Source: Hysterangium stoloniferum (taxonomy: Eukaryota; Basidiomycota; Agaricomycetes; Hysterangiales; Hysterangiaceae). From it: a stretch of 64,000 nucleotides of DNA. Below, in pieces: positions 1-47,384 of the stretch. The position numbers and the translations under genes are program-made. Each line of letters starts with the position of its first letter. The stretch's first letter is position 1. The notes beneath the pieces are model-generated. The model did not search any database. It saw nothing but the letters and a program-made list of their open reading frames with translations, and was not told the origin of the DNA. Where the stretch lies: assembly GCA_015178975.1 (NCBI GenBank), contig WHVD01000005.1:310001-374000 (forward strand), read 5' to 3'.

Positions 1-235
1 AAGAATTGACCCAGCCTGGGATTGAACCAAGGACCTCCTGGCTTTATATGCAGGTGCTCTTAACCACTGAGCTACTGGACCTATAGTCTAGTATTATATG
101 ATGGATTATATATACATATATATAAGGACTTATGTTGCCAACTTGTGCTCTTATAACAGTTTATATAACTGATGGCAAACCTGGGTCTTATAACAGTCTG
201 TCACATATAGATATTGTATTTTCCCATTTCTAACA
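1..235 (-). mobile_element. LTR of family A, truncated by window edge, carries a tRNA gene
   Basis: Read on the minus strand this is an LTR beginning TGTTAGAAATGGG at 235. It matches the complete copy at 29147-29397 except for about 16 bp lost off the left edge of the window. It interrupts the third ORF of the gypsy element that continues at 236, so it is a solo LTR or the 5' LTR of an element lying outside the window. The target duplication cannot be checked because the other flank is missing. Confidence 0.8.
7..81 (-). tRNA. tRNA-like gene inside LTR A, copy 1
   Basis: A 75-nt cloverleaf with a 7-bp acceptor stem (two G-U pairs), a 4-bp D stem, a 5-bp T stem with loop TTCAATC, and both pol III internal promoter boxes (A box TAGCTCAGTGG, B box GGTTCAATCCC). 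The anticodon stem needs one bulged C to form 5 bp. The loop then reads ATATAAA, giving an apparent ATA anticodon, so the isotype is uncertain. It may be a functional tRNA gene captured by the LTR or a decayed one. Confidence 0.6.
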
Positions 236-5309: not shown

Positions 5310-5636
5310 TCTTCAACCATCTTTGTCTCCATCTGTGTTTGGATGAGCAGACCCACAGTGAAGGTGAATCTGGGAACCACAAGCTCCATTGCACAAAACA
5401 TGCTGCTGGGGACATGGGCAAGTCCTGACAGCATGCCAAACTAATAGTAATACATGAAAGATCAATCTAACCTACAAGTTTTAGGGCAATAAAGGAGTAG
5501 GTAAGGGGGGATGGCGGGAAAAAGAAAATTAATCAAGGGAAGGCTGAGCAATACCTTGAGGGCTGGCCACTCAGATGATGGTAAGAGACAATTGCGGTTG
5601 GCGGAGCTTAAAAAGGGGCATTACAAAGAACACGGA
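5310..5636 (+). repeat. Repeat E, copy 1, abutting a host gene
   Basis: About 330 bp aligning with 43115-43466 over blocks such as GAGCAGACCC, CATGCTG, ATGCCAAACTA, TTTTAGGGCAATAAAGGAG, AAGGCTGAGCAATACCTTGAGGG and GCGGAGCTTAAA...CATTACAAAGA. No TG..CA ends or coding domain were found, so the class (MITE, SINE or fragment) is unknown. A 81-codon ORF from 5511 falls entirely within repeat sequence at its start and is not counted as a gene. The repeat ends about 24 bp before the start codon of the next gene. Confidence 0.7.
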
Positions 5637-5659
5637 CTAATTTCATTACCGTTCCATCC

Positions 5660-7312
5660 ATGGCGCAAGACCAGCCTGACACAGAATGGCACGCAATTCG
5701 CCCATGGTCTCGTAGAATATCATTACAAGTTAGAGAAGTCACGTCAGTCTCCGTAACATTCGTTTTAAGGTCGACGATAGGAGCATCTCGCTTAGAGGCA
5801 CTAGCGGCCTTAGGTGATGAGTCAGATGAGGAGGAAGATATGTCTCGAATGCCCACTATTTCAGATGCATTAGGCCGTGGACTTGCTGTCAAAGTGAACG
5901 GGAATCATTGGCAACGGGTCGTTGTTCATGTGGATGAGGACGAAGAAGAGGCCATAGTAATCGTCTATGGTCTTAGTCCACGCAAGAAGTACGAAATCAA
6001 TCTGGTTATTGTCGCTGCCGCTGATGGCCTCTCGGAGGAAGTCACAACACAGTCGGGACAAGGTGTATCCCCGTGTATATATATGGTTCTATATATTGAG
6101 TTGACGCATTGACTAGATGATACCGCATCACAAGGATTACCTATTATAAATGCTGCTAACCACCCTTCTGATCCCGCCGTTTCACCCTCTACTTTAACAC
6201 CTCCGACCACACCGATTCGCAGCTCTCCGCCGCGGACGATCCCTCCAGAGGAACGTGTTTCCCAGTTGCGCAAACAACTTGGCCTTCTGACGACGGAACG
6301 AGATGATCTAGGGTCACAGCTCAAGCTTGCTCGGCGTGAATCGCAGCGTACGGAGACAGCTTTGAAAGGAGAAATTGAAACTTTAAAACGTGCTTCGGAA
6401 AAGCATGCTTCGGGGGAGCATCGGAGCCGGCAAAAAGTCCTTGCGCTACAGGAAGCGGTGAAACAAGCGAGTGCAGCTACCGGCGATATCGAGAAAATGA
6501 TCAGAGGTATTGAAGAAACACTCCCTGCGTTGAACCAGCGGGCAAAAGAGGTACAAGCGACGCACGACACAGTGAAGGATGAAGTCGCGCGAAAGTCGCA
6601 GGAGCTTGATGTCTCCCTCCGCGAAGACAGCAGGAAGGTACAAGAATTACAGGCAGAATTAAGTGGCGTGTGTTCTCGACTCGAAAGGGTGAGAGGTAAA
6701 AAGGAGAAATTGGAAACAGAGATCATTCCTCTGCTAGAGGCGAAGTTGGAGCAACTGCAAACCGCCTCACCAAGTATCGACACTTTTCAAGCTGAAGAAG
6801 ACGTGGATGAATTATGGAATGTCCGTAATTGGGTGTCTCCCATTCAACGGCCATCTCCCAACCCACAATCCGCTTTCCCATCGCCCAGTTCAGTTTCCAC
6901 TTTCAACACCGTACCCACAATTTTGCATCAAAACTCATTCCGTTTGTCCCGTACGCCATGTTTCAAGCCAGCCGGCAGTGCCACGCTTCCCCCCCTCCTT
7001 CCTTCTTATGACCCCAATTTTTCTTTGGGGGCTATCTCTTCTCCAGAGGCAGCCCCCCATAGCGCTATCAATTCTCCCTCTCCGCGGGCTGCTTCCGAAC
7101 TTCAGTCTGGTGGCACTTTTTATACGGTGTCGCGCCTTCAATCGCAAAGTGTGAGCCATCTCAATACGGCGCCCTTTGATTTTGTAGTGCGCAGACCTTC
7201 TCCCAATTTGACAAGTGGGGATTATGAGCAGCAATCAAGGCAAAATTCCCTACCTTCTGATGCTTCAAGAACAGATCGCACACCCTCCGCACTGGGTGAT
7301 GTAGGTGTCTAA
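5660..7312 (+). CDS. Coiled-coil protein with FN3-like N-terminus
   Basis: Two exons, 5660-6062 and 6117-7312, joined by a 54-nt intron whose phase is consistent (G+AT = Asp), giving 532 residues. The first ~130 residues resemble a beta-sandwich of fibronectin type III style (LQVREVTSVSVTF, then GLSPRKKYEINLVIV) with an acidic insert. Residues ~190-380 form a long charged heptad-rich coiled coil. The remainder is Ser/Pro-rich and disordered. This layout suggests a scaffold or tether; no specific orthologue is recognised. The start codon lies only 24 bp after repeat E, so either the 5' UTR and promoter are repeat-derived or the original N-terminus has been lost. Confidence 0.75.
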
Positions 7313-7558
7313 TATTGGTTAGAGGGAGTGGTTGGTTCATACGTGCTATTTATACTGTATCATTATTAAGTATCCAAAGAGAGCTTGCGAGGACATATAT
7401 ACATGATTTTTAACAAGATATGTGAATGTGAACCGGGAAATTGGCAGGTGACTCTCATGCTAGCGAAGCACACCCTCACATCGCTCGAGTCACGCTTCAC
7501 CTTTACCTCTAGTTATCTTCGACGCCATCGACACTACTACCGCTTCCTCTCAACCATA

Positions 7559-10168
<2,610 letters not shown>

Positions 10169-10425
10169 AGCTACATGATGGGGTGTTTTGTGGTGGGCTG
10201 GCGTGTACGGGGAGATTTGATCGATTCCCACTCGGAAATAATAGTAGGATTGAGTTTTGACATTATCCTCACAGGCAGTTTATAAAACACAATTGTTGTG
10301 ATTTTGAGTTAAAGGCGATCCTATGAGTAGTTGTGTGAACTGCGTCATAGAAGTATATTAGCTTAGCGCCCAACTAATACTATCTCGACAAACCACCACA
10401 AGGACAGGCTCAAGGACAGCCCGAA

Positions 10426-13400
10426 ATGGCAGACCTGCCAACGATGACCACCCCTTCTTCATTGCTTTTGCATGAAGAATTACCATCGAAGCCTTCATCT
10501 CCAATTATCACAGACGTTGCAACACCTGTGGCGGTAACAGCCCCAAGTACAGATGTCGAGTCTGCTGAAAAGACTCACCGACCATTAGTCATTGGTGCTG
10601 AATCTGAAGTGTCGATGGCAGCGGTTATCCCATCGCCATCGTCTGGCATACAAGTTGCTCCAGATCCTGGGTCGCAGTCAACTCGCGGCACCGAAACTTC
10701 CCTCGAGGACAAGGACGGAGCTAGCAACCCAAGCACTGGGGATCCGAGTAGACCCCTCAATGTCAGAGATGCTCTTGGTTACCTGGACGCCGTTAAGAAC
10801 AAGTTTCAAAATAATCCAGATATCTATAACAATTTCTTGGAGATCATGAAGGACTTCAAGAGTCAGAGGTGTGTTACGGTTGTTGTTCACTGTCCATCAC
10901 TTTGACTTACACGTTTTCTGTCGTAGAATTGATACCCCAGGCGTAATAAAACGCGTTTCAACACTATTTACAGGTCATCCAGCTTTGATCCAAGGCTTCA
11001 ATACCTTTTTACCCCCTGGATATCGTATTGAGTGTTCGATGGATCCTAAAGAACTCAATATGATCAGAGTCACGACACCTCAGGGAACGATGACTCAAAG
11101 TACCACTGGCGGTATCTCTCGCATTACCTCTGACCCGCCATCTAGGACGCAAAGTTTTTCTACCGTAGTTGCGACCTCAAGCCTACACGAGTTGCCCGTA
11201 ACGTCGGGCGCTTTACCTGCAAACACAGTCTCATTCCAACCCGCACCCGTAGTCCATCCAACTGTAGCTGGCCCAGTACATCCTATTTCTGGCTTCACTC
11301 CCCCTCGCGAGCAAGGGGCAGAATTCCAACCTACAGAACAAGCCATCGAGTATGTCAATCGCATTAAGCAACGGTATGCCGATGACCCCGCATCATATCA
11401 ACGTTTCCTAGAGTTGTTGGAAAGGTTCAATCGGAGTCCCGAAGACGTAGGTATATTTCATTTTCTCTCGTGATTGGAATCCCAACGAAAATTTGCAGCA
11501 GAGTCAAGTTCTTCAACAGATTGTTCACCTTTTCAAGAATGCGCCTGATTTATTGGACGAGTTCAAGCTTTTTTTGCCAAGTGATGGCACTACTACTCAT
11601 GCAAATCTGCTGGGTATGTTTGGTCAAATCGCCGGAGATGCTGGACTAGGTTATGGCAAAGAGAGTTATAGAGACAAGGTGTCTGAGAAAATCTCATCGA
11701 GGAGGAAAGAGAAAGGGGATGCTGCCGGACCCGACAAGCCCACTCATTCTCCCCAGAAGAGAAAACGGAAACCAGTTGACAAGGATTTGGCAGGCTCCAA
11801 AGTACAGGGAGCGACTAAGGTATATATTGTCTGATCTATATTTGCTCATACTTTCTTCTGAGATTTTGTAGACGAAAAAGGCCAAACATCACCATCCGCC
11901 CACCGATCTGTCCCCTCCACCCTCCCAACCTCTTACTACTTTTCTCCAACGCGCGCCTTCGCCAATCTTTGCGCCCACATTTTCTCACGTTTCACAGGCA
12001 GGACCGTCACCTATCCTTCCACCGCCGCCTCCCGAAGCTCAAACAATCGACGACGCTACGTTCTTCGAACGAGTAAGACAATTCCTGGATAATCGAGAGA
12101 CTTACGACGAATTTCTCAAGCTTCTTAACCTATTCACGCAAGGTCTTGTCGATCTACGAGCTCTTGTCATGCAGGCAAATAGCTTTTTGGCCGACAGTGA
12201 TCTCATGGGACAATTCAAGGAAATTGTAGGCTGGGAAGAGAAGGAACGGCGGGATATGGAGAACAGCAGTCCTAATGCGCCCAAGGTTGTGCAACGACCC
12301 AGCAAGGCTGACCTTACTGTCAGATACGGACCTAGTTATCGGAAGTTGCCTCCAAGTGTATGTCTTATTATTCCATCTTACACAGTGGAGCCATAGCTTA
12401 TGGATTATTCTCAAGGAGGCCCATGTGGTCTGTTCTGGCCGTGACGCCATGTGTAATGCTGTTCTGAACGACGAATGGGTTTCTCATCCCTCTTGGGTTT
12501 CCGAAGATACTGGTTTTGTAGCCCACAAGAAGAATATCTATGAAGAGGCTTTGCACAAAAGCGAAGAAGAGCGACACGAGTATGACTTCTACATTGAAGC
12601 TATGATGAAGACGCTTGGTGTATTGGAACCCCTCTATTCGAAAATTATGACTATGTCGGACGTTGAACGAATGACCTATAAACTTAAGCCACTATGGAAC
12701 AGTCAGCTCAAGACCATTCATCAAAGACTACTTAAGAAAGTTTATGGTCGTGAAGCCGGTCTGGAAGTCGTTCAAGCTCTACAGGATTCACCCGTGGTAG
12801 CTTTGCCAGTCATAATTCAGCGTCTAAAACAGAAAGAAGAAGAATGGAAGAGAGCCCAAAGGGAGTGGAACAAAGTCTGGCGTGAGGTGGATGCTCGCAA
12901 CTATTGGAAAAGCCTTGATCATCAAGGGGTCGCCTTCAAAGCCAGTGATAAGAAGGCCATTACTACTAAGGCGTTTGTTTGCAATATTGAACTCGCAAGG
13001 CAACAGCAACTTGCCAGGCGCACTTCACTCATCGATCCTACATTTGCTCGGACAAGACCCCGTTACCAGCTCGCGTATACCGTCGAAGATGTCGCTGTTC
13101 TGCAGGACGTGATCAAGTTGGTGTTGTCCTTTTTGGACAGAACACAGGGGCAGATAAGCGCTCATGATCGCAAGAAAATTGAAAATTTTTTGCGTCATTT
13201 TGTGCCAATGTTCTTCATGTTCTACCACCGGGAGTTCGATTCTGCATTTTCTTTGAACAGCGATGCTGATAGCGACATCATAATGAGTGACGGGATTGGG
13301 AGTATATTAGGTGATGATGATTCTGGTAGTGTTGCGGGCAGCACGAGATCCAAGAACGGCAAAAAGTCTGGACATGCTGCTGATATACGGAAAAAGCTCT

Positions 13401-14875
13401 TCAAATCTGCCCAACAAGAGAAAGTGGGTACTAGGCGCACCAGAAGCATAGCGTCTGCGCCAGGATCTAGGGCACCAACTCCCCCTTTGAGTATTAACGG
13501 GAATGCCACCAACATGATAATGGACGTCGAGATCCCTGGAGCCTCTCGTGTCAGTCATGGTCATGCACCTAATGGCGTAAGGACAACAAAATTGAACAAT
13601 AACGCTACTAAAGGGTATAAGCCCCCTAGTAGTAGTCCGCGTAAGTATGCCTCGCAGCGTGGAATTTTCTTTGCCAACACTACGCTTTACGTGTTTTTGA
13701 GACTCCTCAATGTAAGTCTGCTATATTTATTAAAAACCCGCCCTGAATTGCCCCCAGCTTCTGTATTCCCGGTTGTTGTTGTGTAAAAACCTCGGGCTGG
13801 ATCTAGCCTCCGCCCCAACAGCTACTCTCACACACTTTCCTAATCCTGCTGCGTCTCAGACAAGCACAGAGACAATGCCTGATGGCACAGCGCTCCCCGG
13901 CGATCTAGCAAACTCTGCGGAACATTTCTATGGCCATCTGTTGGAGTCCTGTGAGAAACTGTTTGATAATGTCATTGATCAAGCTACCTTTGAGGATACT
14001 GTGCGCTACATGTTTGGTATGAAGGCGTACAACGTTTTCACCCTTGACAAAATTATTGGCGCTCTTATTAAGCAAGTGAGGAACATGAAAAGAGAAACCA
14101 TTTCTTCCTTCATGTAGCTGATTGTATCAATAGGTTCAGTTCATCCTCTCTGATAGCAAGAACAAAGAATTGGTACAATTGTTACAGCGGGAACGGGAAA
14201 ATCCCTCAGGATTAATACAGGATCAGATCAACTATCGCAGAAAAGCGGAAACCATTACAGGTCTCGATGAGCATCTTTATCGGATTGATTATGTTGATTT
14301 TTTTTACTTTCTTACCCTTTTTTTCCACTGATGTTGAGCCTCGACCTTTGCTTTAGCTTCCTGATTCGCGAACATACACTATACAGCTCCTTGGCAAGGA
14401 TGATGTCAGGGATGATGACACACCAGCAATGATGGACCGATGGGAACGGTACATGGCTTCGTATCTTGATGTAAGCCGCATGCAAACATAGTTCGTGTTA
14501 CGAGCCCTCATCATCGCCTTAGACATCGTTCTCGAGTACAATTCCGTTAAAGTCCAAGCGCCCATTCCTACGAAGGTAGTCCAATCTCTATTTATTGTTA
14601 ATATCGGAGACAAACTAATAATCTATACATATAGAACTTTGCGGCCCGAAAAAGTCGCACCTGACGCAGCCGTTATCGCAAAAATTGGTTTGCAGAGTCA
14701 AGTGTGCCTACGAACCTACAGACTCTTTTTTGTGTCTCGTAGCGAAGACTGGGCCTATTGGCGATATCTCGAGGGTGACTTGCGGAAATTGAATGAGCAA
14801 GCTGAAATACGGCTGTTGAGACGAAACAAATGGATGAAAGAATCTGGCCAGGATGGGTGGAAGTTGAAGCCTTGA
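10426..14875 (+). CDS. SIN3: SIN3 transcriptional corepressor scaffold
   Basis: Nuclear scaffold of the Sin3 histone deacetylase complex. Ten exons: 10426-10868, 10927-11446, 11499-11819, 11872-12357, 12416-13711, 13758-14075, 14134-14292, 14357-14470, 14523-14575 and 14635-14875; total 1316 residues with every phase consistent. Three paired amphipathic helix domains are visible: PAH1 ([12 protein letters not shown]...), PAH2 ([12 protein letters not shown]...), PAH3 ([12 protein letters not shown]...). The HDAC-interaction domain follows, starting at [11 protein letters not shown] and containing [20 protein letters not shown] and [15 protein letters not shown]. The C-terminal Sin3 region ([13 protein letters not shown]) closes the protein. 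Linkers between PAH domains are Ser/Pro/Thr-rich, as is normal for the family. Confidence 0.95.
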
Positions 14876-16393
14876 ACCATAAAATGGAGCTTTGCTGGTT
14901 TGTCATGAAGTTTGTGGTTGGTTTATTGTGGGGAAAATGTAGTCATTTGTTATTGGTATTGATGGGTATATGTATATGTATTAATACATGCTATTTTTGG
15001 TTGTATATTTGATGTTTGTACAAAGATGAACTGGATATAGCCGACGAGCGGCGTTAAAGCTATTTGACTCACCTAATGGCCCACATACCTTATCTAAGTA
15101 GCACGCTGACACCTCGGCCGACCCCCTAACTGGGTATGTCTCACAGTGCATATTACACACGAATAATACTACGAATACTTCTGGCCTACCTAAAAAAAAA
15201 TTACCTCGCCCCTCACCGTCCTCCCGGTTAAACCCCTGTGCTGGCTTTGTGGCCATGGTCCAACGTGACCGTCAGCCACCGTGTCACTCGGTTCCAAAAC
15301 CCCAGCGCTCATCATTGCTCATCCTTGTGGCACTGCGCGTCGTCATTGTCACCGACGGTGATGGCAGCTGCGCTTCCTAGATGTCCGCGAAAAATTCCAT
15401 TGTTTTTTCCTACCATCGTGTACACATATTCTAGTACTATTACTTACTTATAATATATATTTCTCAATGGTTGAACCTATGAGATTTCTTTCATTTTTTG
15501 AGAGTGATTATTTTTCAACAACTACTCATTGTCCAAAGTCTGGACTTTATTTGAAGCATCTGACTTCCTATTCCCAGTCCTTCACCTATCATCTTTTTTA
15601 CTACTATCATCATTATCCTCACTATCTTCCCTCTCCAGCTTTTGAGTCTTGCATTTGACTCTGGTATCAGAGCATTTCTTGTGACTATCACATGTGGCCT
15701 TCTTCTTTGCAACCTTTTCTCAGTGTTCTGTAGTTTGCTGGGAACTCATCTTGTGCCAATAGCAAGTTGGTTTGGAACCTTGAAGAGCCTTGACATATGC
15801 ATCCAAATCACCAATGGTGAGAACATGGGGATCAAAAGTCTGGACAGGCTAGTGAACAAGCTGGATACTATGCAACTCCACAATCTTTGTATCATAGGGT
15901 TTCCACTCCATCTCCAAGGATTCATTCTCTATTATCCTACCTGCTATGAGGTTAATAATAACACCTCCCCTGATCTAATATTTAACAAAGTCCTTTTCTA
16001 ACCATGTGTTAGGATCCCATCATTTCAGATCCCTGTGACCTGTTTTAGGCTCAAAACCCTCCATCAACTCACTATCAGTACCCCTGCCCAAGGTATCACC
16101 ACTCACAGCATCCCTGACATTTGTTTTATTATAGTAGTTTACCCTCTAGCCTTCCATTCCATCTCTGTCCCATTCACTCCCCCATCACTGTCTCCCTTTA
16201 CACATCTCACTTGCCACCTCAGACCCCTTTAGTATTGTTTAGTATCTTACATTTAGTCTTCCCACCTTGTCATCGACTTCTTATGATCTCTGTCACTTTT
16301 ACTTCCTTGATCAGCTGTTAGGATCCTCACCCTTTTGGGCCTGGCAAGCCCCCCCAACTTGGTCTTACATATATACCTTTATAACCTTTCTGG
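14876..16393. other. SIN3 downstream region grading into degenerate repeat
   Basis: 14876-15240 is the SIN3 3' flank. From about 15640 to 16140 the minus strand has broken coding-like segments (for example ALQGSKPTCYWHKMSSQQ and EMEWKPYDTKIVELHSIQ) separated by stops, which looks like a decayed transposon or pseudogene I cannot assign. The same tract resumes at 26005-26111 and 27333-27500 once later insertions are removed. Confidence 0.45.
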
Positions 16394-17147
16394 GACCCTG
16401 TTACAACTGGAATTCCCACTGGACTCCGGGCACTAACTTATATGCACCCACATCCTATACACACCAATTGTCAGTTTACCAGACTTCCTGCCAGACTCCA
16501 TATATCAGACTTGTCTATGTTCGACTTTGTTACGTTGTGGATCAGTCACCAGAATACCCACTGGACTCCATCCCTGTCGATGTCCAACTCTGTCCCACAC
16601 ATCAGTCACCAGACCCCGCTTGGAAAACCCGTCATCTCTCTAACTGAGCCCCGTTCCTGTTTTAGTCAAATGACCTGTCATGATTTGGACTCCACTCCCA
16701 CTCCATTTCCCATTATGGTTTATGGTTTGTCACAATTCGGACTCCACTCCATTCCGTCCTATTCCTAACACCAAATTTGGTGTTTACTATTCTCATTTCA
16801 TGTTTTGCTAGTTTTGTTTCATCATTACTGGATTTGGCATGTCATTCATTCCACAGTCTATATAGTCTGGCAGATGTTGTACATACAATCCAGTCAGAAA
16901 ATCAGCTTAGATTCCCCCAGTAATCTAATACATTTTCCACTCTAAACTCCTCCTTGAATTACACTGCTCACACTAGTCGGAGCCCACGGGCTCTGGCGCA
17001 TCTATCTCTTTTATTTATCTCAACTCCCGACCTCTCGACCCATGACCTCCAACCTACGACCCCTGACCCACGAACCCCACCTGGACTCCCTGGGATTCCT
17101 GTCTGCCTGTCTGAAATTGGACGACACGATTTTGCAATGGCACAGCC

Positions 17148-17987
17148 TGTTAGGATACACACACAGGCTGGGTTTCCGGAGAAACCCACAGGATATCCAG
17201 TAGGACTTGGCTTCAGCTTATAGGCTGTGCCCTCGCTAGATTGTGTTGTCCAATTTCAAACGGACGGATGGGGATCCCGGGGAGTCCGGGCAGGGTTCGT
17301 GGGTCGTAGGTCATAAGTTGGAGGTCGTGGGTCGTAAGTCAGGGGTTGTGGGTCGTGAGTCGAGTTGGTTGAGAGAGGTAGATGCACTGGAGCCTGTGGG
17401 CTCCGACTAGTGCGAGCGATGTGAATTGAGTAAGGTTTTAGAGCGGAAAATATTATTAGATTACTGGGGGGAATCTAAGCTAATTTTCTGACTGGATTGT
17501 ATGTACAACATCTGCCAGTTTATATAGACCATGGAGTGAATGACATACCAAATCCAGTAATGGCGAAACGAAACTAACAAAACATGAAACGGGAATAGTA
17601 AACACCAAATTGGTGTTAGGAACGGAACAGAACGGAGGGGAGTCCGAATCGTGACAAAGCATAACCCATAAGGGGAAACGGAGCGGGAGTGAAGTCCTAA
17701 ATCGTGACAGGTCATTTGACTAAAACGGGAACGGGGCTCGATTAGAGCGGTGACGGGATTCTAAGTGGGGTCCGGTGATGGGTGCGTGGGACAAAGACGG
17801 ACATAGACAGAGACGGAGTCTGGGGGAAGTCCAGTGACTGATATGTGTCATATTGAGGTCGAACGTAACTAGTCTTGACGTAACGGAGTCCGGGCAGGAA
17901 ATCCTATAAACAGACGATTGGTGCTTGTAGCGCGTGGGGGCGTACGGGTTAGTGCCCGGAGTCCAGCGGGATTGTCCGGTCGTAACA
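17148..17987 (-). repeat. 3' LTR of gypsy B element
   Basis: 840 bp, the same length as the 5' LTR at 25082-25921. In element orientation it begins TGTTACGACCGG and ends ATCCTAACA. A TATATAAA box lies near its middle. Confidence 0.95.
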
Positions 17988-18043
17988 GTATCCTCCCTTT
18001 ATGCCGAAGTCCTAAAGAGACTCTAGACCTACATAAGGTTCTT

Positions 18044-18103
18044 GTCAGCTACGCGCATGTGTCAAAAGTCATGTCGGTTACACGTATGTGTCAAAGAGTC
18101 ATG
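18044..18103 (+). repeat. Two-copy 30-bp direct repeat upstream of the antisense gene
   Basis: Imperfect copies at 18044-18072 and 18073-18103 share ATGTGTCAAA and GTCATGT cores. They sit 35-95 bp upstream of the TATA box of the antisense gene, where a transcription factor site would be expected. Confidence 0.5.
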
Positions 18104-18137: not shown

Positions 18138-18148
18138 TATATATAAAT
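18138..18148 (+). promoter_or_regulatory. TATA box of the antisense cargo gene
   Basis: TATATATAAAT lies 50-60 bp upstream of the ATG at 18198 on the + strand, inside the gypsy B element but outside its LTR. It is oriented against the element's own transcription. Confidence 0.6.
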
Positions 18149-18197: not shown

Positions 18198-19206
18198 ATG
18201 GGACCAAAGCCCACGCCGCGCAAGCCTATGCCAACTGCCGGGCCCTCCACGGGCAGTCAGTACCGGGTGCCACTGTCCGCTGCCCAAATCTTGGCGCAGT
18301 GGGACAAGCAACGACGACAGCGTGAAGAGGCAGAGCGAGAAGCCCAGGAGGTCGAGGAGGCCTTGAACAGGGAATACCAGGCAGCCGTGGCCACGGAGGA
18401 AGAGGCTGCTCGGCAGAAGCAACGGGAGGAGGAGGAGGCTGTGCGAGTGGCCGCAGAGAAGGCCAGGGTAGCGGCTGAGAAAGCCCGGGTGGCCGTGGAC
18501 AGAGCCGCGGTTGTTGCAGGGAAGGTAAGTCCCATAGTTCAATTTCTCGTCTTTTTTTGACTTGGCATTTTCAGCGCAAGGCAGCGGAAATCGAGTCGGA
18601 GTCTGAGGGGAGCAAGAAAGCCCCAACAAAGTGAGTCTCGTGTCCGTGGGATTACCGTGGAGCTAACCGTGTCAACAGAAAGCAAGGAAGGCGACGCCAG
18701 TCCGCGTACCGACTCGGAATGACCCGTGGTGTTCCGGTTGCAATGACCGGAACACTGAGTGCAATCGGAAATCCGGCTGGGGCCCGGGGTGTTATCAGTG
18801 TGTGCACCTCAGGGTGAGGTGCTCGCTCGTTCACGAGCAGGCCGTGGGGTCTGGTTCACAGGAGAATGGTGGGTCAGACGGGTACTCCGGTCTGGAAGAA
18901 GTATTGGAACAGATCGCCGAGGGCATTGAGGCCCAGAATGAGTTGCTCCGAAAGAGCAACAAGGTCAGTGTTGTCATGGCGAACGATCTCCGCGCAATCC
19001 GCGGGGACCACTTCAAGTTCCTGATGGAGTATGCCGGCTTTGTATATGACAAGCCGGAGGATGGGAGTTCCGAGGAGGCCGGTTCAGATGAGGAGGAGGT
19101 GCCCGCGGAGGTCGTGGAGCTACCCAAGGAGATGAATGAGGCAGGAAAGGCTGAGGCGGAAAAAGAGGCAGGGAAAAAAGATAGCCCCATCAATGTAGAT
19201 GAATAG
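18198..19206 (+). CDS. Zn(II)2Cys6-cluster coiled-coil protein, antisense cargo of gypsy B
   Basis: Three exons, 18198-18524, 18575-18630 and 18687-19206, with 50- and 56-nt GT..AG introns, give an open 300-residue protein. Residues ~30-110 are a Glu/Arg/Ala coiled coil (AEREAQEVEEALNREYQAAV). Residues 143-173 contain C-x2-C-x6-C-x9-C-x2-C-x6-C, exactly the spacing of fungal GAL4-type binuclear zinc clusters. The C-terminal half has a short helical segment then a strongly acidic tail ending INVDE. The gene is convergent with pol, whose chromodomain ORF ends 200 bp away. The final acceptor was chosen as the only one that keeps the cysteine frame. DNA binding is inferred from the motif, and the role is unknown. 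Confidence 0.72.
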
Positions 19207-19406
19207 AAGTAAAAACTTAATAGTAATTTGAACATAAAAGTAAAGCATGAAAACATAAAAAAATAAAAGTCAAAGCCAAAGTCCGCGGGAAATCTGCTTA
19301 AGGACTTGACAAGACATGTCAGAACCTGTAAAAGCAAAGAGAGACATAGGGCGACAGGGAATAATGAAAATGAGTCCAAACGTAACACGGGGTCCGCAGG
19401 GTGTGG

Positions 19407-20003
19407 TTAGAGAGAAGATAATGGTCCAGGTTTGAGCGGGTAAGCTGTATGAAAGTCAGTAATGATTTCCATGGCATTACCGAGTTCGGTGGCCAAAATC
19501 CATGAGGTCTCTTCATTGGTGCCCTCGTAACCCGCCCACTTGACCAAGTAAAGCAGTTTACAAGTGCATCCATGCTTGTCTATTTTTGAATCTAAAATCT
19601 GTGAGATTTCAAACTTGGGTTCTCCGTCAATGACGACAGGAGGAGGCGGAGATTGCACGCGATCCGGGATAGTGTTAGCAGTACAAGGTTCAAGCATAGA
19701 AACATGAAATACTGGGTGTACCGCGCGCATGCTATCCAGAAGCTGTAGAGTCCAAGAGACTGAACCTACTTGTGCGATAATTTCAAACAGGCCTAGATAT
19801 TTTTCAGCAAGCTTCTTTGATGGATCTGGAAGAATTGAGCTTTGACATAAACACGGTCGCCAATCTTGAAGTTGGGTGGCGGGATCCGGTGTTTGTCCAC
19901 TGAATGTTGGTATTGCTCTTAGGCGGACAATATTGCAGTCCGGAGTTCCTCATGGAGCTCATGGAGGTCTGTGGTGAACTCTTGAGCGCGAGCAGAGGCG
20001 AGA
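19407..20003 (-). CDS. Integrase C-terminus and chromodomain of gypsy B (broken)
   Basis: Continuation of pol after integrase. Segments IPPPNFKIGD (about 19850, integrase C-terminal GPF-like region) and VFHVSMLEPC lead into a chromodomain (KFEISQILDSKI, LYLVKWAGYEGTNEETSWI) near 19480-19620. Chromodomains direct chromovirus integration to marked chromatin. Frameshifts between 19730 and 20003 split the region. Confidence 0.75.
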
Positions 20004-20005
20004 TT

Positions 20006-21136
20006 TCATTCTGGATGTACTGTAATATTTGGATTATATCCTTTATTTGCAAAGAACGGGGAAACGCCAGTAGTGGCTGAGGGTGCATTGTTGTAAGCAA
20101 ACTCTGCAAGTGGTAACAAGGTCTTCCAATTGTCCTGTTGGTAGTTGAAATATACGCAGAGGTATTGTTCCAATGTCTGGTTGACGCGTTCGGTTTGTCC
20201 GTCACCTTCCGGATGATGTCCAGACGTGAAATGTAATGTCATGTCCAAGGATTTTCCGAGAGATCTAAAGAAGTGAGACACGAACTCTGATCCTCTATCG
20301 GAAGTCACATGGGACGGAACTCTGTGCTTGGAAAATACATGGATAATGAAAAGTTCCATTAACTGCACGGACGTAATTGTATCATAAGTAGGGATGAATA
20401 TACCTTGTTTTGAAAATCTGTCAACAACGACTAGAATAGCAGAAAAGCCTTCAGAATCCGGTAGGTGTTCAATGAAATCCATAGATATAGAATTCCACGG
20501 GTGTTCTGGTACCGGGAGTTGTTTCAAAAGGCCGTATGGCTTGTGTCGCTGAGATTTCGAGCGGGGACAAGTAGTACAAGATTTACAATAGTGCTTAACG
20601 AATCCACAGAGTCCGGGCCAAGTATATTCTCTTCTTATTAATGATAGAGTTTTGTTGTACCCGAAATGTCCTGAGAGTGGATGATCATGTTTGTATTGAA
20701 GGATCCTGAGGCGGAGGCCATCGGAGTCTGGTACATAGATACGATCGTCAAGTCTAATGAAACCATGTTGATCAAGAGACCACCGAGGTTGATCGGGGTC
20801 CACGGGATTGTCCAGATGAGCTTTAGTAACTGGGTCTAGCGGAATTGCCAATAGAATATCTTGATGTAACTTCTTGATATCCATAATGATAATTCCACGG
20901 ACAATGGGATTGATGAGGAAAGTTGCGCGGACCGATGCGGTAAGCTGTTGATTTGTGAAAATAGGTTTCAGGTTGTGCGGATTTACCGTTGCATAGTCGT
21001 TGCTCCCCTCTTTAGGATAGACATCCCATCGTCTAGTTAAAGTGTCGGGTTTGCCGCCGAGACGGCCGGGTCGAAAACAGATAATCATGTTGAAGGCAGA
21101 GAGATATTCAGACCAGCAGGCCTGCCGGTGGGTCAA
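20006..21136 (-). CDS. RNase H end and integrase of gypsy B
   Basis: An open stretch of 376 residues. It starts in the last part of RNase H (FNMIICFRPGRLGGKPDTLTR) and holds the zinc-binding HHCC domain (HPLSGHFG ... CKSCTTC) and the DDE catalytic core (SMDFIEHLP; TSDRGSEF; GQTERVNQTLE). It ends at a TGA following VHPE where related elements would continue, a probable CGA to TGA change. It inserts element cDNA into the genome. Confidence 0.85.
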   Translation of the reverse strand: MTHRQACWSEYLSAFNMIICFRPGRLGGKPDTLTRRWDVYPKEGSNDYATVNPHNLKPIFTNQQLTASVRATFLINPIVRGIIIMDIKKLHQDILLAIPLDPVTKAHLDNPVDPDQPRWSLDQHGFIRLDDRIYVPDSDGLRLRILQYKHDHPLSGHFGYNKTLSLIRREYTWPGLCGFVKHYCKSCTTCPRSKSQRHKPYGLLKQLPVPEHPWNSISMDFIEHLPDSEGFSAILVVVDRFSKQGIFIPTYDTITSVQLMELFIIHVFSKHRVPSHVTSDRGSEFVSHFFRSLGKSLDMTLHFTSGHHPEGDGQTERVNQTLEQYLCVYFNYQQDNWKTLLPLAEFAYNNAPSATTGVSPFFANKGYNPNITVHPE

Positions 21137-22299
21137 AAGTTTTGTGGTAGAAAAGTATTCCAGGTTTGATGATCTGTTACAACGTCAATAGGAGCTCCTG
21201 AACCTTCCAAATAGTGTCGCCACGCTTTGAAAGCTGAAAAGATTGCCAGAAGTTCTTTATCGTGAACGTTGTAGTTGAGCTCTGCTCCGGTAAAAGTCTG
21301 GGACAGAAAAGCCACAGGGTGAACTTCTCTGTCGGAGTCCTGGATAGAGAGAATGGCTCCAAGTGCATAGTCGGAGGCGTCCGTTTCAACAATGAGCGGG
21401 AAGTCCGGTTTCCAATGCAACAGAATAGGAGCTGTAGAAAAAGAATTTTTTAAAAGATTGAAAGCTTTTTGACACTTATCATTAAAATTCCACGGAGTAC
21501 CCTTACACGTAAGATGGGTAAGGGGTACCGTGATGTTGGAATATCCACGGATAAAACATCTGTAAAAATTGGCAAAGCCGAGGAAGGATTGTATATCTTT
21601 AACTTTTCAGGATTCGGGCCAATCTTTGATGACTTGCACTTTAGTTTCATCCATGCAGAGTCCATCGGGTCCCATCATGAAACCTAGGTATTCCACGGAG
21701 TCCGTGTCAAAAGTACATTTTTTACCATTTGCGAATAAACCATGTTGTCTGAGCCTCTGGAGAACTTCACGGACTTGTTTGTCGTGTTCCGCGGGATTCT
21801 CGGAGTAGATAAGAATGTCGTCCAAGTAAACAATGATGCATACATCGAGCATGTCGGAGAAAATGTCGTTGATAAAACGCTGAAAAACAGACAAAGCATT
21901 GGTGAGTCCAAAAGGGATGACCAACCACTCGAAGGCCCCATAACGGGTTCTAAAAGTGGTTTTCCATTCATCGCCCACGGCAATCTGGACCAAATGATAG
22001 GCATGCTTGAGATCTATTTTGGTGTAAATCCGGGCATTCTGTGGGGCATCGAGCAGGTCAGATATGAGTGGGAGTGGATATTTGTCCTTTTTGGTGACAG
22101 CATTGAGTCCTCTAAAATCAACACAAAGTCGAAGGGATCCATCCTTTTTTCTGACAAACAGAACAGGTGCTCCAAAAGGAGACTTTGAGGGTCGAATAAA
22201 ACCTATGGACAAATGTTCATCCAGGAAATCACGGATTGCGGATAGTTCCGTGGATGAAAGCGGGTAAATATGTCCTAGGGGTGGCTGGGTGCCATCCAA
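21133..22299 (-). CDS. Reverse transcriptase and RNase H of gypsy B (frame broken)
   Basis: RT motifs in order: [51 protein letters not shown] and the catalytic [10 protein letters not shown] (21607-22299). After a TGA at WPES the frame continues with [15 protein letters not shown] and RNase H ([28 protein letters not shown]). A 1-nt frameshift near 21165 links it to the integrase ORF. Confidence 0.88.
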
Positions 22300-23121
22300 G
22301 ATCGATTTTTAAGTCATATTCTCTGTGAGGCGGAAGCCGGTCAGCTTTCCACTTGCTAAAAACATCCGTGAAGTCATGATATTTCTCCGGGATGCCTTCT
22401 AGGTCAGTGGCTTGCTCAGATTCAGATACCGGGGTTGAAAAACGTCCAGTTGCTTCATCAATTTTTAAGTTGATAGTGAACGCCTGGGACCCATCCATTT
22501 TTGAAGCCCTAATAAAAGCTGCAGCATTAATCAGAGAAATGGACGGAGGTGCCGTGGGTTCCGGGGAAGCTATTGGTGCCGTAGGGATCACAGGAGTCCT
22601 CGAGACTGCAGGAGCCAGGAAGGCCATGGGTGCCGTGGAGGCTGAGACAGGCACAGTTTCCTCGGTCGCCATGGGAGTCCGGAATGTTATACTGTTAGCT
22701 ATCCAGTCAATCAACGGATTGTAGCGGGTAAGCCAGTTATGTCCTAGGACCACCGAGCAACTTGAGTCTAACTGGGTCACATAGAAAGTGACCAACTGAG
22801 ATGTTCCACAAGGGAAATTGATGGGTAAATCACAAGCTTGGGTAACAACCGAATTACTTGTGCCATCGAAGAGGCGGAGACTGACGGGATTTATCGAATA
22901 AGTTGACAAAGAATTTTTTTGCATGAATTTTGTATCTAAAAAACAATGAGTCGAGCTGGAATCTATGAGAGCTGAAAAAACAAATTTCGGAATCATATTA
23001 GACATAAGTTTAACGAAAAATGAATCAGAATGTGAAAGAGCGGATGCGTTGAGGCAAGTGAACTCTTGAATGCATGGAGAGGCAACGCAACCCCTAACCT
23101 GCGTGGAGTCCGCGGGGTTGC
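22300..23121 (-). CDS. Aspartic protease region of gypsy B
   Basis: Follows gag on the minus strand. The sequence [17 protein letters not shown] occupies the place of the retropepsin active site (normally D-S/T-G), with Ser in the Gly position, and [17 protein letters not shown] is the conserved flap/C-terminal motif. A Pro/Ala/Thr-rich linker connects to RT. The frame is broken near 22300 just before RT. Confidence 0.75.
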
Positions 23122-25045
23122 TTACTCTTTTTTTGAATCGGCAGCTGGTTTGTCCTTCAACAGGGATTCCGTGGAGGCCTTGGCTGATCGACCCTTTGAA
23201 GAGTTTGCTCTTGCCAGCGGACATTCCGGGACTCGATGACCGGGTTTCCCACACAAGAGACAGAGGTTGTTGTCCATACAATGTTGTCTTTCTTGTGGAG
23301 TCAATTTGCCATCGGGTCCGAGTTTGCCTGAGAGGTCGGGTTTTCCGGCTTGCTTGCCGGACTGTTGACCCTTGTTATTGTCCTTGTTGTCCTTGTTGTT
23401 GTTGTTGTTGTTTGAAGACTTTTTATTGTTCTTCTTGTCGGATTGCGTGGAGTTCTGGTTGCTGGTTGACGAATTGTTGTTATTGTTTTTGTCCTTGGAC
23501 TTGTTTACTTTGTCCGCGGATGTCTCGCGGGCAACTTCCGTATGACGTTCCCAAGAATGTGCGTCCGCGTTTTGAGCTTTGAGGCGCATACGGGACAGGG
23601 TTTTTGGCTTGCCATCTTCTCCTTTCGAGACTTCATCTTTAAGGTGGGACGGCAGACTGGCGTAGAATTGGTGGCGGAGAGTGGGATCACCCCACTGACA
23701 ATGAGCTGCAAGATTATTGAATTGGACGATGTAGTCCGTGATGTGCTGCGTGTCCTTCATACGAAGATTTGTGAGACTATTCTTGGCTTCTCCTGTCAGG
23801 TCATATGGGCCGAAGTTGGTTTCAAGCTCCTCAACAAAAGCCTCCCAATTTTCAAGCCAGAGCAGCTCTTCCTCAGAAATCCCACTAAAAGCTGGTTCGA
23901 ACCATTTCAACGTGGATCCTGACAAATATGACAGTGCATAGTTGACTTTTCGGGAGTCCGTGGAGAATGCAGCGGCACGATCACGGAAGTTGAAGCGACA
24001 TTGCATGAGGAAAGTAGAGAGTTTGTTTGGGTTGGAACCCGTGAAGGGTTCCAGTGTGAGAGGTATGGCGAAATACACTCAGGAAATATAGTTGGATGAG
24101 CTCTTACTATATCTCCTTTATTATTTCTATTTTCTCTCTTTTATTATATCTATATTAGTTTGACGACCTATGTATGTGGTACATCGACTCTTGTGGGCGC
24201 ACAAGCAGACTTATGTATTCTAGTGCCCATAGTTTAGAACTCAGACACTTTTTACACCGCAACCACGACTTACCCAGACACCCATTAGTGTCCTGTAAGT
24301 TGTGATTGGTGTATCGTCTCGACCGTCACAGACGGGCTTTAGCTATCTACTCTATCAGAGTTTCGAACTGTACCAGTCGAAACTCAATCCTTATCTTAAC
24401 TCGTGTGGACTACATCCACACTACTCTATTATTCGACTCTCTAGTACTCTACTTTACTCTCAAGTAATCGTTCAGGATCGCACTTGACAGTCGATTCTAC
24501 TTATTCATTTTAACTCTCTACCTTATCCTAGATAGCTACTTCCCTCTACCGTATTGAACTAAGTAGTCAATACATGTTCATTCTGTATTAGACTTCGACA
24601 GTCAATACATCTTTGTGTCGTACCTAAACGGTCCATATTCTTCGTATATAGAATGGTTAGAACTTCCACTATTCTTCACATCCGGAGCATTGACTGTTGA
24701 CTGTGGAGGTTCTTGTTCCTTTTTCTTTCGTTCTTCGAGCAGGTGCGTCATGAATTTATCTATGGTTCCTGCTAAAAATTCAGAAGTAGGATCCCCCAAG
24801 TGCGGTCGTTGAACAGGTGGAGGGTTTTCGAGAGGAATTTCGACACCTTTGCCCTTGTCGGGGGCCACGGAATCGTCCTCGTGCTTGGATTCATCCAGGT
24901 TTTCCGGGACTTCTTTGATACGGGCTTCTCCCATGGGTTCCGACTGGTTTGCAAGTGTCTGACTGGTGTACAGAGTTAATGGGGAATGAAGAGTCGACGG
25001 TCCAGGTATTGATGACTGTGCGCGTGTACTTCTTCTTGGTGGCAT
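23122..25045 (-). pseudogene. Gag of gypsy B, split by a solo LTR
   Basis: Start ATG at 25045 (MPPRRSTRAQ, a common fungal gypsy Gag start). The N-terminal part runs to about 24681, where the LTR C solo insertion lies, and resumes at about 24054 with LTLEPFTGSNPNK. The capsid-like region (NYALSYLSGSTLKWFEP) is followed by an Asn/Lys-rich tract and one CCHC zinc knuckle, CLLCGKPGHRVPEC. Otherwise open to the stop at 23122. Confidence 0.85.
24055..24680 (+). mobile_element. Solo LTR, family C, inside gag of gypsy B
   Basis: A 626-bp copy of the LTR at 1913-2542, starting TGTGAGAGG and ending ATTCTTCACA. Flanks TCCAG (24050-24054) and TCCGG (24681-24685) are a 5-bp duplication with one mismatch. 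It inserted after the gypsy B element did. Confidence 0.88.
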
Positions 25046-25068
25046 AATGAAAACAATCTGCAAGTATT

Positions 25069-25079
25069 AGTCAGAAAAT
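25069..25079 (-). other. Candidate self-priming primer-binding site of gypsy B
   Basis: Two nt downstream of the 5' LTR the element strand reads ATTTTCTGACT. This is the exact complement of AGTCAGAAAAT in the 3' LTR (17483-17493), which lies about 33 nt after the first base of TATATAAA, where the mRNA should start. No tRNA-type TGG site is present. This matches the self-priming arrangement known for fission yeast Tf1. Confidence 0.6.
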
Positions 25080-25081
25080 AC

Positions 25082-25921
25082 TGTTAGGATACACACACAG
25101 GCCGGGTTTCCGGAGAAACCCGTGGGATATCCAGTAGGACTTGGCTTCAGCTTATAGGCTGCACCCTCGCTAGATCGTGTTGTCCAATTTCAAACGGACG
25201 GACGGGGATCCCAGGGAGTCCGGGTGGGGTTCGTGGGTTGTAGGTTGTAAGTTGGAGGTCATGGGTCGTAGGTCGGAGGTCGTGGGTCATGAGTTGAGTT
25301 GGTTGAGAGAGGTAGATGCGCTGGAGCCCGTGGGCTCCGACTAGTGCGAGCGATGTGAATCGAGTAAGGTTTTAGAGCGGAAAATATTATTTGATTACTG
25401 GGGGGAATCTAAGCTAACTTTCTGACTGGATTGTATGTACAACATCTGCCAGTTTATATAGACCATGGAGTGAATGACATACCAAATCCAGTAATGGTGA
25501 AATGAAACTAACAAAACATGAAACGGGAATAGTAAACACCAAATTGGTGTTAGGAACGGAACGGAACGGAGCGGAGTCCGAATCGTGACAAAGCATAACC
25601 CATAACGGGAAACGGAGCGGCAGCGGAGTCCTAAATTGTGACAGGTCATTTGACTAAAACGGGAATGGGGCTCGATTAGAGTGGTGACGGGATTCTAAGC
25701 GGGGTCCAGTGACAGGTGCATGGGACGAAGACAGACATAGACAGAGACGGAGTCCGGGGGAAGTCCGGTGACTGATATGTGTCATATTGAGGTTGAACGT
25801 AACTAGTCTTGATGTAACGGAGTCCGGGCGGGAAATCCTATAAACAGACGATTGGTGCTTGTAGCGCGTGGGGGCGTACGGGTTAGTGCCTGGAGTCCAG
25901 CGGGATTGTCCGGTCGTAACA
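25082..25921 (-). repeat. 5' LTR of gypsy B element
   Basis: 840 bp; TATATAAA on the element strand at 25451-25458. The predicted mRNA start copy here reads AGTCAGAAAGT, one transition away from the 3' LTR. Confidence 0.95.
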
Positions 25922-27600: not shown

Positions 27601-27670
27601 TATGTATAGTCTAGTATTATGTATATGATGGATTATACATATATACATATATATATGGACTTATGATGCC

Positions 27671-28440
27671 TGTTACGACCAGAATTCCCACCAGACTCCG
27701 AGCACTAACTTATATGCACCCGTGCCCTATACGCACCAATTGTCAGTTTACTGGAATTCCCGCCGGACTCCATACGTTCAGACTTGTCCACATTCGACTT
27801 TGTTACATCCCGTATCAGTCACCAGAATACCCACCAGACTCCATCCCTGTCTATATCTGACCTTGTCCCATGCATCAGTCACCGGACCCCACTCAGAAAA
27901 CCCATCATCCCTCTAACTGAGCCCATTCCCATTGTAGTCAAATGACCTGTCATGATTCAGACTCCACTCCATCCCGTTCTGTTCCTAACACCAAATTTGG
28001 TGTTTACTTATCTTGTTTTATGTTTGCTAGTTTTGTTTTCATTATTACTGGATTTGGTATGTTATTCATTCCACAGTCTATATAGTCTGGCAGATGTTGT
28101 ACATACAATCCAGTCAGAAAATCAGCTTAAATTCTCCCTAGTAATCTAGTACATTTTCCACTCTAAACTCCTCTTTGAATTACACCGCTCTCACTAGTCA
28201 GAGCCCACCAGCTCCAATGCATCTATCACTCAACCTCCGACTTATTTATCTCGACTCCCCAACCTCTCGACCCACAACCCCTCAACCCACAAACTCTGCC
28301 CAGACTCCCCAGGACTCCCATCTGCCTATTTGAAATTGGACAACATGATCTCACGAGGGCGCAGCCTATAAGCTGAAGCCAAGTCCTACTGGATTTCCCA
28401 TAGGTTTCTCTGGAAACCCTCCGTGTACGCACCCTTAACA
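27671..28440 (+). mobile_element. Solo LTR, family B, with ATGCC target duplication
   Basis: A 770-bp diverged copy of the gypsy B LTR, starting TGTTACGACC and ending CCTTAACA. ATGCC flanks it at 27666-27670 and 28441-28445. It lies within LTR A copy 2. Confidence 0.92.
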
Positions 28441-29146: not shown

Positions 29147-29397
29147 TGTTAGAAATGGGAAAATACAATATCTATATGTGACAGACTGTTATAAGACCCA
29201 GGCTTGCCATCAGTTATATAAACTGTTATAAGAGCACAAGTTGGCATCACAAGTCCTTATATATATGTATATATAATCCATCATATAATACTAGACTATA
29301 GGTCCAGTAGCTCAGTGGTTAAGAGCACCTGCATATAAAGCCAGGAGGTCCTTGGTTCAATCCCAGGCTGGGTCAATTCTTTTCTATGCCTTTAACA
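29147..29397 (+). mobile_element. LTR A copy 3 (complete, 251 bp), 3' LTR with tRNA gene
   Basis: Begins TGTTAGAAATGGG after a polypurine tract and ends CCTTTAACA. This is the best-preserved copy and defines the family. The coding part of the element is absent upstream, so the superfamily cannot be decided; the polypurine tract and TGTTA..TAACA ends would suit Ty1/copia. Confidence 0.8.
29301..29375 (+). tRNA. tRNA-like gene inside LTR A, copy 3
   Basis: 75-nt cloverleaf: acceptor GGTCCAG/CTGGGTC (7 bp with two G-U pairs), D stem GCTC/GAGC, T stem CTTGG/CCAGG with loop TTCAATC, discriminator A. A TTTT pol III terminator follows at 29380-29383. The anticodon stem pairs 5 bp only with a bulged C, and the loop reads ATATAAA. 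The isotype is therefore unclear. Confidence 0.65.
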
Positions 29398-47327: not shown

Positions 47328-47384
47328 AAATAAAGCATTTGACTATTATTAGTCTTCTCTAGTCTTGTACATTTTATAGGTGGA

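Follow-up and report, generated by a model that had tools for sequence, protein, structure and literature searches.

Introduction

VANDAL elements are DNA transposons. In Arabidopsis, the target word of their protein VANC occurs densely in VANDAL21 and seldom in other elements (PMC5735166). Among long terminal repeat (LTR) retrotransposons, antisense additional open reading frames (ORFs) of the type named aORF-3R are described, in excerpts from two papers, for maize Grande (gene23), rice RIRE2, Silene Retand (TRP28) and Botrytis Boty (PMC7264820; PMC11963269). In the same excerpts, the Grande gene has its own promoter and a nuclear protein, TRP28 is predicted to bind DNA, roughly half of the Retand elements have tandem repeats in this region, and the function of LTR-retrotransposon antisense genes is treated as an open question (PMC7264820; PMC11963269). 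Fungal proteins of the Zn2Cys6 type, in the cited part of a further paper, typically recognize paired CGG triplets, whether inverted, direct or everted, and do so as homodimers, with a coiled coil following the zinc cluster (PMC5559640). Here we analyze a stretch of 64,000 nucleotides (the window; GenBank assembly GCA_015178975.1, contig WHVD01000005.1, positions 310,001 to 374,000 of the forward strand) from Hysterangium stoloniferum, listed as an ectomycorrhizal fungus in the passage cited (PMC7550596). The window contains element B, a Ty3/gypsy retrotransposon carrying an antisense gene for a Zn2Cys6-like protein and numerous short words built on CGG triplets, and its relatives were sought throughout the host assembly (111.1 Mb, 554 contigs).

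We give a probability of roughly 0.57 to the reading that the Zn2Cys6-like protein recognizes CGG-type words of its own element as self, most likely against host silencing, with a protein and a word for each family. Two sister Ty3/gypsy families each carry an antisense gene that has two introns and a TATA box of its own and whose 3' end faces that of pol. On this account, the protein would bind CGG/CCG-triplet words throughout its own element, probably as a dimer via CGG half-sites, and copies of the element would thereby be recognized as self. More tentatively, its most likely role may be to hold the copies transcriptionally open in the face of host silencing, as VANC does for VANDAL; it is by this analogy that we infer anti-silencing self-recognition as the protein's purpose. 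Both the protein and the dominant word would be particular to each family. The main argument for casting the protein as the reader of the words is that the type of domain matches the type of word, and the CGG-triplet words lend indirect support to binding of the element's own DNA.

The antisense gene in family B

The gene lies on the plus strand, between the chromodomain end of the minus-strand pol and the 3' LTR. It starts just inside the 3' LTR and runs tail to tail with pol, and the coding parts of the two do not overlap. A sequence-only reading of the window had proposed an antisense, retroelement-borne gene at this place and had staked it on homologues in other family B elements. To follow the gene through the family, we aligned 41 copies drawn from the best 150 of 1288 exon-3 match candidates in the host genome: the window copy together with the 29 that score next (L009-L038), plus another 11 hand-picked lower down (L039-L049). 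All of them were found via the antisense gene itself, and element copies without the gene fall outside the counts. Homologues occupy the same place in the other copies, and the adjacent pol is antisense to the gene in 39 of the 41 (one has no pol in reach and one has pol on the same strand); LTR homology lies 5' of the gene in 38. The gene is thus an antisense ORF between pol and the 3' LTR that is kept in most family copies, as is characteristic of an aORF-3R. Many comparisons below use L039, a young relative of element B whose LTRs differ by 1 base in 821 and whose pol frame spans 1304 amino acids.

The gene has its own TATA box (about 18138..18147, plus strand), as the sequence-only reading had stated, and TATA[AT]A is found upstream in 39 of the 41 copies. 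Exon 1 (18198..18524, plus strand) opens with an ATG at 18198, kept in 37 copies, and encodes a Glu/Ala/Arg-rich region that looks coiled-coil-like by eye. It is followed on the same strand by intron 1 (18525..18574; GTAAGT..TCAG), exon 2 (18575..18630), intron 2 (18631..18678; GTGAGT..CAACAG, with the family acceptor) and exon 3 (18679..19206), which encodes the zinc-cluster-like domain and an acidic C-terminus ending SPINVDE, with the stop at 19206. The cysteine cluster, C-x2-C-x6-C-x9-C-x2-C-x6-C (18730..18822, plus strand), is present as the earlier reading had given it, and the loss of cysteines across copies that it had proposed to look for did not emerge, all six being retained in 39 of the 41 copies. 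The short SPINVD tail (window about 19183-19203) is also conserved: of the 24 rows in one alignment (A2), 23 have it, the exception being P0001.

Both introns have GT/AG borders in 41 of 41 copies, even where intron 2 carries an insertion (one copy), which argues that the gene is not a chance frame. The two canonical introns of the sequence-only reading are therefore borne out, except that it placed the second acceptor at 18686/18687 and the family uses 18678. That misplacement accompanies its 300-residue open frame and the intactness that this implies; the work-around acceptor restores such a frame on paper and no further. Exon 2 is 57 nt long in 38 of the 41 copies, 51 and 60 nt in two others and 56 nt in the window copy, which is frameshifted relative to the family; spliced as in the family, the window copy is out of frame and meets 4 stops. 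The antisense gene of the window element is thus probably dead. Many of its relatives are open, with 132 of 150 scored exon-3 matches lacking an internal stop (hand count).

The comparison of copies by ratios of nonsynonymous to synonymous divergence (dN/dS), which the sequence-only reading had also proposed, gave values of 0.10-0.23 over the three exons in ten copies, hand-picked among the other 40 and compared with L039 by the NG86 method. With CpG differences excluded, six copies gave 0.21-0.29, and the shifted plus-strand frames of exon 3 gave 1.26-2.07. Within the gene, the ratio of nonsynonymous to synonymous differences per site (pN/pS) is lowest in the six-cysteine region, as seen in 7 of 7 copies compared (0.08-0.23, against 0.26-0.42 in exon 1 and 0.21-0.49 at the C-terminus). 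By these ratios, purifying selection maintains the family B protein. We also considered the minus-strand frame over exon 3 as the true gene and rejected it: its dN/dS was 0.16-0.31, above that of the plus frame in 10 of 10 comparisons. The gap over exon 3 was only 0.01 in some comparisons and a low minus-frame value is expected there because wobble positions coincide; the plus strand is favored as coding because of the introns, the TATA box and the cysteines too. The same evidence bears on the idea that the locus acts via antisense RNA, double-stranded with the genomic transcript, and that its reading frame is incidental. Antisense transcription alone is proposed as possibly regulatory at such loci in the text available from one source (PMC7264820), yet codon-level purifying selection, the retention of cysteines and splice sites, and one exon plan in two families make an RNA-only role very improbable.

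CGG-triplet words in family B

Reading of the element first drew attention to the recurrent words TCCACGG/TCCGTGG and GGAGTCCG. Words were counted on both strands, a palindromic site counting once per strand, and expected numbers come from dinucleotide shuffles unless otherwise stated. The consensus TCCRYGG occurs 23 times in window positions 19240-24070, where 1.7 are expected, and is near or below expectation elsewhere in the window (4 vs. 3.8 at 5600-15100, 3 vs. 5.2 in the element gypsy A and 6 vs. 7.9 at 44000-64000). When 6-mers were ranked without prior choice, CCACGG/CCGTGG came top both in the window element (20 vs. 2.9) and in L039 (23 vs. 3.5). At the 9.9 kb L039 locus, all 45 TCCRYGG words fall inside the 8.1 kb element and none in the 1.8 kb of flank. 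TCCRYGG is above expectation in 41 of 41 copies (453 vs. 48.8 summed), which are related and not independent; CGGAGTCCG outside the LTR is above expectation in 13 of the 41.

The excess is largest within coding sequence. The pol of L039 has 24 TCCRYGG words, in all three frames, compared with a mean of 4.9 and a maximum of 12 when synonymous codons are shuffled (0 of 400 shuffles reach 24), and its gag has 9 compared with 1.0 (maximum 5). Paired triplets are also abundant in L039 pol, with CGG-N3-CCG at 10 vs. 1.7 and CGG-N5-CCG at 15 vs. 2.1 (maximum 7 of 400 shuffles each), these two spacings having been chosen after a spacing scan on the same element. By these counts, the family-typical CGG-triplet words exceed what coding would lead one to expect. 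From the spacer through gag, the window element and L039 share 24 matches, which indicates that the words were inherited together and not gained many times. L039 has 10 extra matches in this interval, 8 of which were lost in the window via changes including a CpG. The predicted targets of the B protein are TCCGTGGA, CGGAGTCCG and CGG-N5-CCG.

Two other roles for the protein bear on this distribution. Zn2Cys6 proteins usually serve as transcriptional regulators, and the B protein might accordingly be an ordinary activator or repressor of its own LTR or promoter, for copy-number control, leaving the words in gag and pol as by-products. The LTR of L039 has 4 CGGAGTCC words where 0.1 are expected, and the window 5' LTR has three CGGAGTCCG. 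TCCRYGG is nonetheless not in excess in the L039 LTR, and the largest excess, in coding gag and pol beyond the synonymous shuffle, is unneeded for a promoter-only role, which we regard as unlikely. Alternatively, the protein could coat or escort the complementary DNA (cDNA) of the element during nuclear import, integration or target choice, so that the words would serve cDNA and not chromatin. The words do span the whole element, basic KKxRK stretches that precede the cysteine cluster (by eye) could be import signals, and accessory nuclear roles are proposed for plant antisense genes in the excerpt consulted (PMC7264820). A divergence of both word and protein between families, as described below, is not clearly predicted by a cDNA role, and we consider it quite doubtful.

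A sister family and the divergence of the gene

A search of the host genome with RT_RNaseH_2 (best 150 of 3564 candidates) led to 14 loci. Five of them (L057, L059, L061, L062, L063) form a sister family, B2, whose pol is 75-84% identical to that of B in the listed stretches, with one at 63%. In two further loci (L064, L065), the C-terminal 406-418 amino acids of pol are 84-85% identical to B. The 3' regions fetched for B2, those of L064 and L065, both have a three-exon gene antisense beyond the end of pol, with introns of 54 and 48 nt and the exon-intron plan of B. Exon 2 begins RKAVEVE (RKATEVE in B), the cluster reads C-x2-C-x6-C-x10-C-x2-C-x6-C, and the gene is open in L064 and has one stop, in exon 1, in L065. 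The B and B2 proteins are 33% identical over 182 amino acids; of 986 candidate matches to B2 exon 3 in the host genome, the best 150 were scored.

The dominant word also differs. The four 6-mers most enriched de novo contain CGGAA in both B2 copy sets, and CGGAA is the predicted target of the B2 protein. Compared with synonymous shuffles, the pol of L063 has 34 CGGAA (14.5 expected) and 18 TCGGAA (5.2 expected), counts that 0 of 300 shuffles reach in either case, and the pol of L059 has 32 (14.4) and 15 (4.4). The CGGAA words use all three frames and both orientations, the pol-sense count of 11 alone lying within the shuffles (up to 12). No CGGAGTCC occurs in the four B2 pol stretches and two B2 gene regions that were counted.

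Within family B itself, the antisense gene is far more diverged than the adjacent pol. Between L039 and the window, transversions amount to 0-0.8% in 14 of 16 alignment steps across pol (1.2 and 2.0% in the other two), 1.2-6.1% in the LTR steps and 8.4-12.6% in the four steps that cover the gene; the step beyond its stop is lower again, at 5.0%. The proportion of synonymous differences (pS) tells the same story, with 7 copies giving 0.43-0.75 in the gene and 6 copies giving 0.10-0.24 in the 3' part of pol. The introns have diverged as much as the exons, and identity in the promoter immediately 5' of the gene is 93%. Copies L043, L044, L045 and L047 represent a third class of the gene, which likewise has a neighboring pol close to that of L039, with transversions of 0.7-1.8% where alignable: L043 and L047 could be aligned over both pol pieces, L045 over one and L044 over none. 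The pol flank of L036, from the window-like class, was likewise unalignable. The simplest account of these contrasts may be that old cassettes were swapped between lineages by recombination during reverse transcription. The fuller picture, a self-recognition code in which an antisense zinc-cluster-like protein and family-specific CGG words, including those in coding sequence, diverge together, cassettes are exchanged between similar backbones and copies are kept open against host silencing, is tentative and in our judgment somewhat short of an even chance.

Control families, CpG content and decay

The other nine of the 14 loci served as controls; their pol is 37-49% identical in the longest or best stretches, and they end short of the place of the gene. 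For three of these families (those of L072, L052 and L073), 3' regions were obtained separately (L066-L068). At E 0.1, neither these regions nor gypsy A gave a homologue of either protein (B or B2), and no six-cysteine pattern was found in them; no LTR was recognized in L066-L068, and L066 has other genes soon after pol. The long open pol frames of L072 (1353 amino acids) and L073 (1246 amino acids) have 1 and 0 TCCRYGG, compared with 1.8 and 2.2 in synonymous shuffles, and their CGGA counts are below those of the shuffles. Summed over the nine control loci, TCCRYGG reaches 17 vs. 8.5, mostly from the related L051-L055 (2-3 vs. 0.5-1.1).

The gene-bearing families are also distinctive in composition. 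The ratio of observed to expected CpG is 1.17 in B (L039) and 1.12-1.25 in B2 (L057, L059, L061-L063), compared with 0.01-0.48 in 11 control loci, 0.76-0.79 in gypsy A and 0.87 in a host stretch. This contrast is consistent with the lineages that carry the gene having escaped methylation of CpG. It also gives substance to the view that the words are not targets of this protein and stem from a host factor, some role of the RNA or a compositional quirk of CpG-rich elements, the gene doing something else: the families with the gene are the most CpG-rich of those sampled, so that composition and gene are confounded, and some words are slightly in excess in families with no detected gene. Both the dinucleotide and the synonymous shuffles, which keep CpG or codons, nevertheless fall far short of the observed counts; neither TCCRYGG nor CGGAA is in excess in gypsy A or in host genes, the fairer controls (CpG 0.76-0.87); and the use of all three frames, and of both orientations for CGGAA, speaks against it too. 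We rate this alternative as rather unlikely.

Older copies of element B have lost CpG heavily, and methylation probably lies behind this loss. Decay (CpG to TG or CA) was scored relative to L039 in 37 copies, excluding L039, L046, L048 and L049. Inside and outside the words, respectively, 56 and 45% of CpG had decayed in the 3' part of pol, 48 and 47% in the gene, and 50 and 46% in the LTR plus promoter; in gag-pol of the window element, the figures were 9 of 32 and 113 of 301. The abundance of the words would then have to stem from the active lineage, as they are not consistently shielded in older copies.

Two observations on composition and coding capacity stand apart from the gene. The family of L051-L055 has frames of 604-1100 amino acids open in 3.3 kb at a CpG observed/expected ratio of 0.01-0.03, and seems to live with near-complete CpG loss. 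Gypsy A has two long sense frames (38475-39137 and 39165-40325, plus strand; 220 and 386 amino acids) between the chromodomain frame and the 3' LTR; neither has a Pfam match, and gypsy A may be a second element that encodes something more downstream of pol.

Resemblance of the protein to Zn2Cys6 factors and evidence against self-recognition

The Zn2Cys6 consensus is C-x2-C-x6-C-x(5-12)-C-x2-C-x(6-8)-C, with basic DNA-contact residues between the second and third cysteines. The six-cysteine pattern of the B protein fits this spacing, as does that of B2 with its x10 middle loop. Searches of protein databases with the B protein passed 1 of 178 candidates at E 1e-3 and, among the matches listed at E 10, 2 of 7996 and 2 of 371 candidates; all matches to B-protein queries are H. 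stoloniferum proteins, including BU17DRAFT_80596. A scan of viral contigs gave no homologue of the B protein, a PDB search gave one chance match only (E 0.58), and a Pfam scan detected no other domain of fungal Zn2Cys6 factors in it. As to capture of a host Zn2Cys6 gene, the window gene is absent from the 42 Zn_clus places listed in the genome. AlphaFold2 predictions for three sequences (the window exon 3 and two proteins) had a mean pLDDT of 40.7.

The following observations weigh against the reading that the protein recognizes its own element through CGG words. The Zn_clus (PF00172) match of the B protein scores 7.7-9.6 bits (8.0 in L039), below the Pfam cut-off of 21 bits, and the B2 protein has no Zn_clus match in the Pfam scan. 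The segment between the second and third cysteines, NDRNTE, is not basic; Lys/Arg precede the sixth cysteine instead. Because the cut-off is missed, we call the protein Zn2Cys6-like, a resemblance in spacing, and do not file it as a PF00172 member; the "GAL4-type" label of the sequence-only reading thus holds for the cysteine spacing and not for the Pfam profile. Among the words, CGGAGTCCG is absent from L039 gag (0), and TCCRYGG in the L039 LTR is at 1 vs. 0.5. The separation of words between families is incomplete: B2 has a modest TCCRYGG excess (6-8 vs. 1.4-2.1; in two copies, 4 and 0 out of 300 synonymous shuffles come up to the observed count), and B has a small CGGAA excess (24 vs. 15.6, reached by 2 of 300). 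Control loci show excesses of their own, of TCCRYGG (3 vs. 0.5-0.9) in L051-L054, of TCGGAA (4 vs. 0.6) in L050 and of CGGAAG (4 vs. 0.6) in L058. Most control families are, moreover, CpG-poor and could hardly show CGG words, the gene's absence at its place was read for no more than three other families plus gypsy A, and gypsy A keeps its CpG at 0.76-0.79 without this gene. Finally, we rejected the proposal that binding preserves the words by protecting their CpGs from decay, older copies showing no consistent protection.

Layout and setting of element B

Element B is a chromodomain LTR retrotransposon of the Ty3/gypsy group, in which LTRs flank gag, protease, reverse transcriptase (RT), RNase H and integrase, in that order. 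It lies on the minus strand. The 5' LTR (25081..25921), identified as a direct repeat and containing the three CGGAGTCCG words counted above, is followed by the leader and the 5' part of gag (24691..25080, by alignment to L039 gag) and then by the 3' part of gag, protease, RT, RNase H, integrase, SH3 and chromodomain (19410..24078; Pfam matches in several frames). Gag is interrupted by an LTR-like insertion of another family (repeat families D1/D2/D8; 24071..24690, ends approximate, strand unassigned), which is outside the system of gene and words. The 3' LTR (17148..17990, minus strand) is a direct repeat of 25081-25921, 92% alike in the first 300 bases. It adjoins AAAGGGAGGA (17991..18006, minus strand), which we take to be the polypurine tract. 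Two imperfect repeats of about 30 bp each, read from the sequence 5' of the gene promoter (18044..18103, plus strand), have counterparts in L039.

Further B-type LTR-like stretches in opposite orientation lie beside the element (about 16397-17147 and 27669-28440), making four within about 12 kb, which suggests repeated insertion near or into one another. Several L039-like B copies lie less than 2 kb from a contig start (C1:1716, C16:973, C25:1157, C33:549, C103:971 and C545:844), owing either to subtelomeric insertion or to assembly breaks at near-identical copies. ARAGORN reported two tRNA-Tyr-like sequences with anticodon ata in the window (7-81, minus strand; 29301-29375, plus strand). They sit in inverted 235-bp repeats that are 99% alike (1-235 and 29147-29381), and are probably a tRNA-derived repeat and not tRNA genes.

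Comparison with known systems

Antisense genes at this place in the element are already known in plants and in Boty, and the present case looks like a new variant; among listings and abstract openings from the open-licence literature, we found no description of such a zinc-cluster gene or of such words. It differs from the described aORF-3R genes in its zinc-cluster-like protein, its two conserved introns, its setting in fungal chromodomain elements and the target-like words that run through coding sequence. The main text of the Retand paper contains neither the word "intron" nor the word "zinc". The antisense gene described here has a recognizable DNA-binding type and a predicted target, and its two sister families have different predicted words.

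With Gal4-type Zn2Cys6 factors, the protein and its words share the six-cysteine spacing and the CGG triplets, inverted and everted; unlike them, it falls below the Pfam cut-off, has its basic residues displaced and is borne by a retroelement. We know of no element-wide target words in the human T-cell leukemia virus (HTLV). Its HBZ gene offers a parallel as a retroelement antisense gene for a nuclear protein, as given in the excerpt used (PMC11963269), while the protein here is unrelated. HTLV also has an antisense promoter in the 3' LTR, according to the passage cited (PMC7264820), whereas the promoter here is inside the element.

VANC and the VANDAL elements present a likeness in logic: in the parts of the two papers that we draw on, an element-encoded protein goes with a short target word that is enriched in that protein's family and scarce elsewhere, the diverged proteins of related families have different targets, and the host silences the elements by methylation (PMC5735166; PMC10398659). 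Enrichment in the own family and rarity elsewhere appear to hold for the words of B and B2 as well, as judged from controls that are few, mostly CpG-poor and in some cases show small excesses. Against a plain copy of VANC, the VANC words are mainly non-coding and the targets often tandem repeats in the text cited (PMC5735166), whereas the words here are dispersed and lie mostly in coding gag and pol. For VANC, the same excerpts give both binding and methylation loss as demonstrated (PMC5735166; PMC10398659). If the predicted binding is true, there would be selection on DNA words that overlap protein-coding sequence, the binding may also explain why these families stay CpG-rich where the other retroelements sampled have lost CpG, and sequence-specific self-recognition of the kind known from VANDAL in Arabidopsis would extend to retrotransposons and to fungi.
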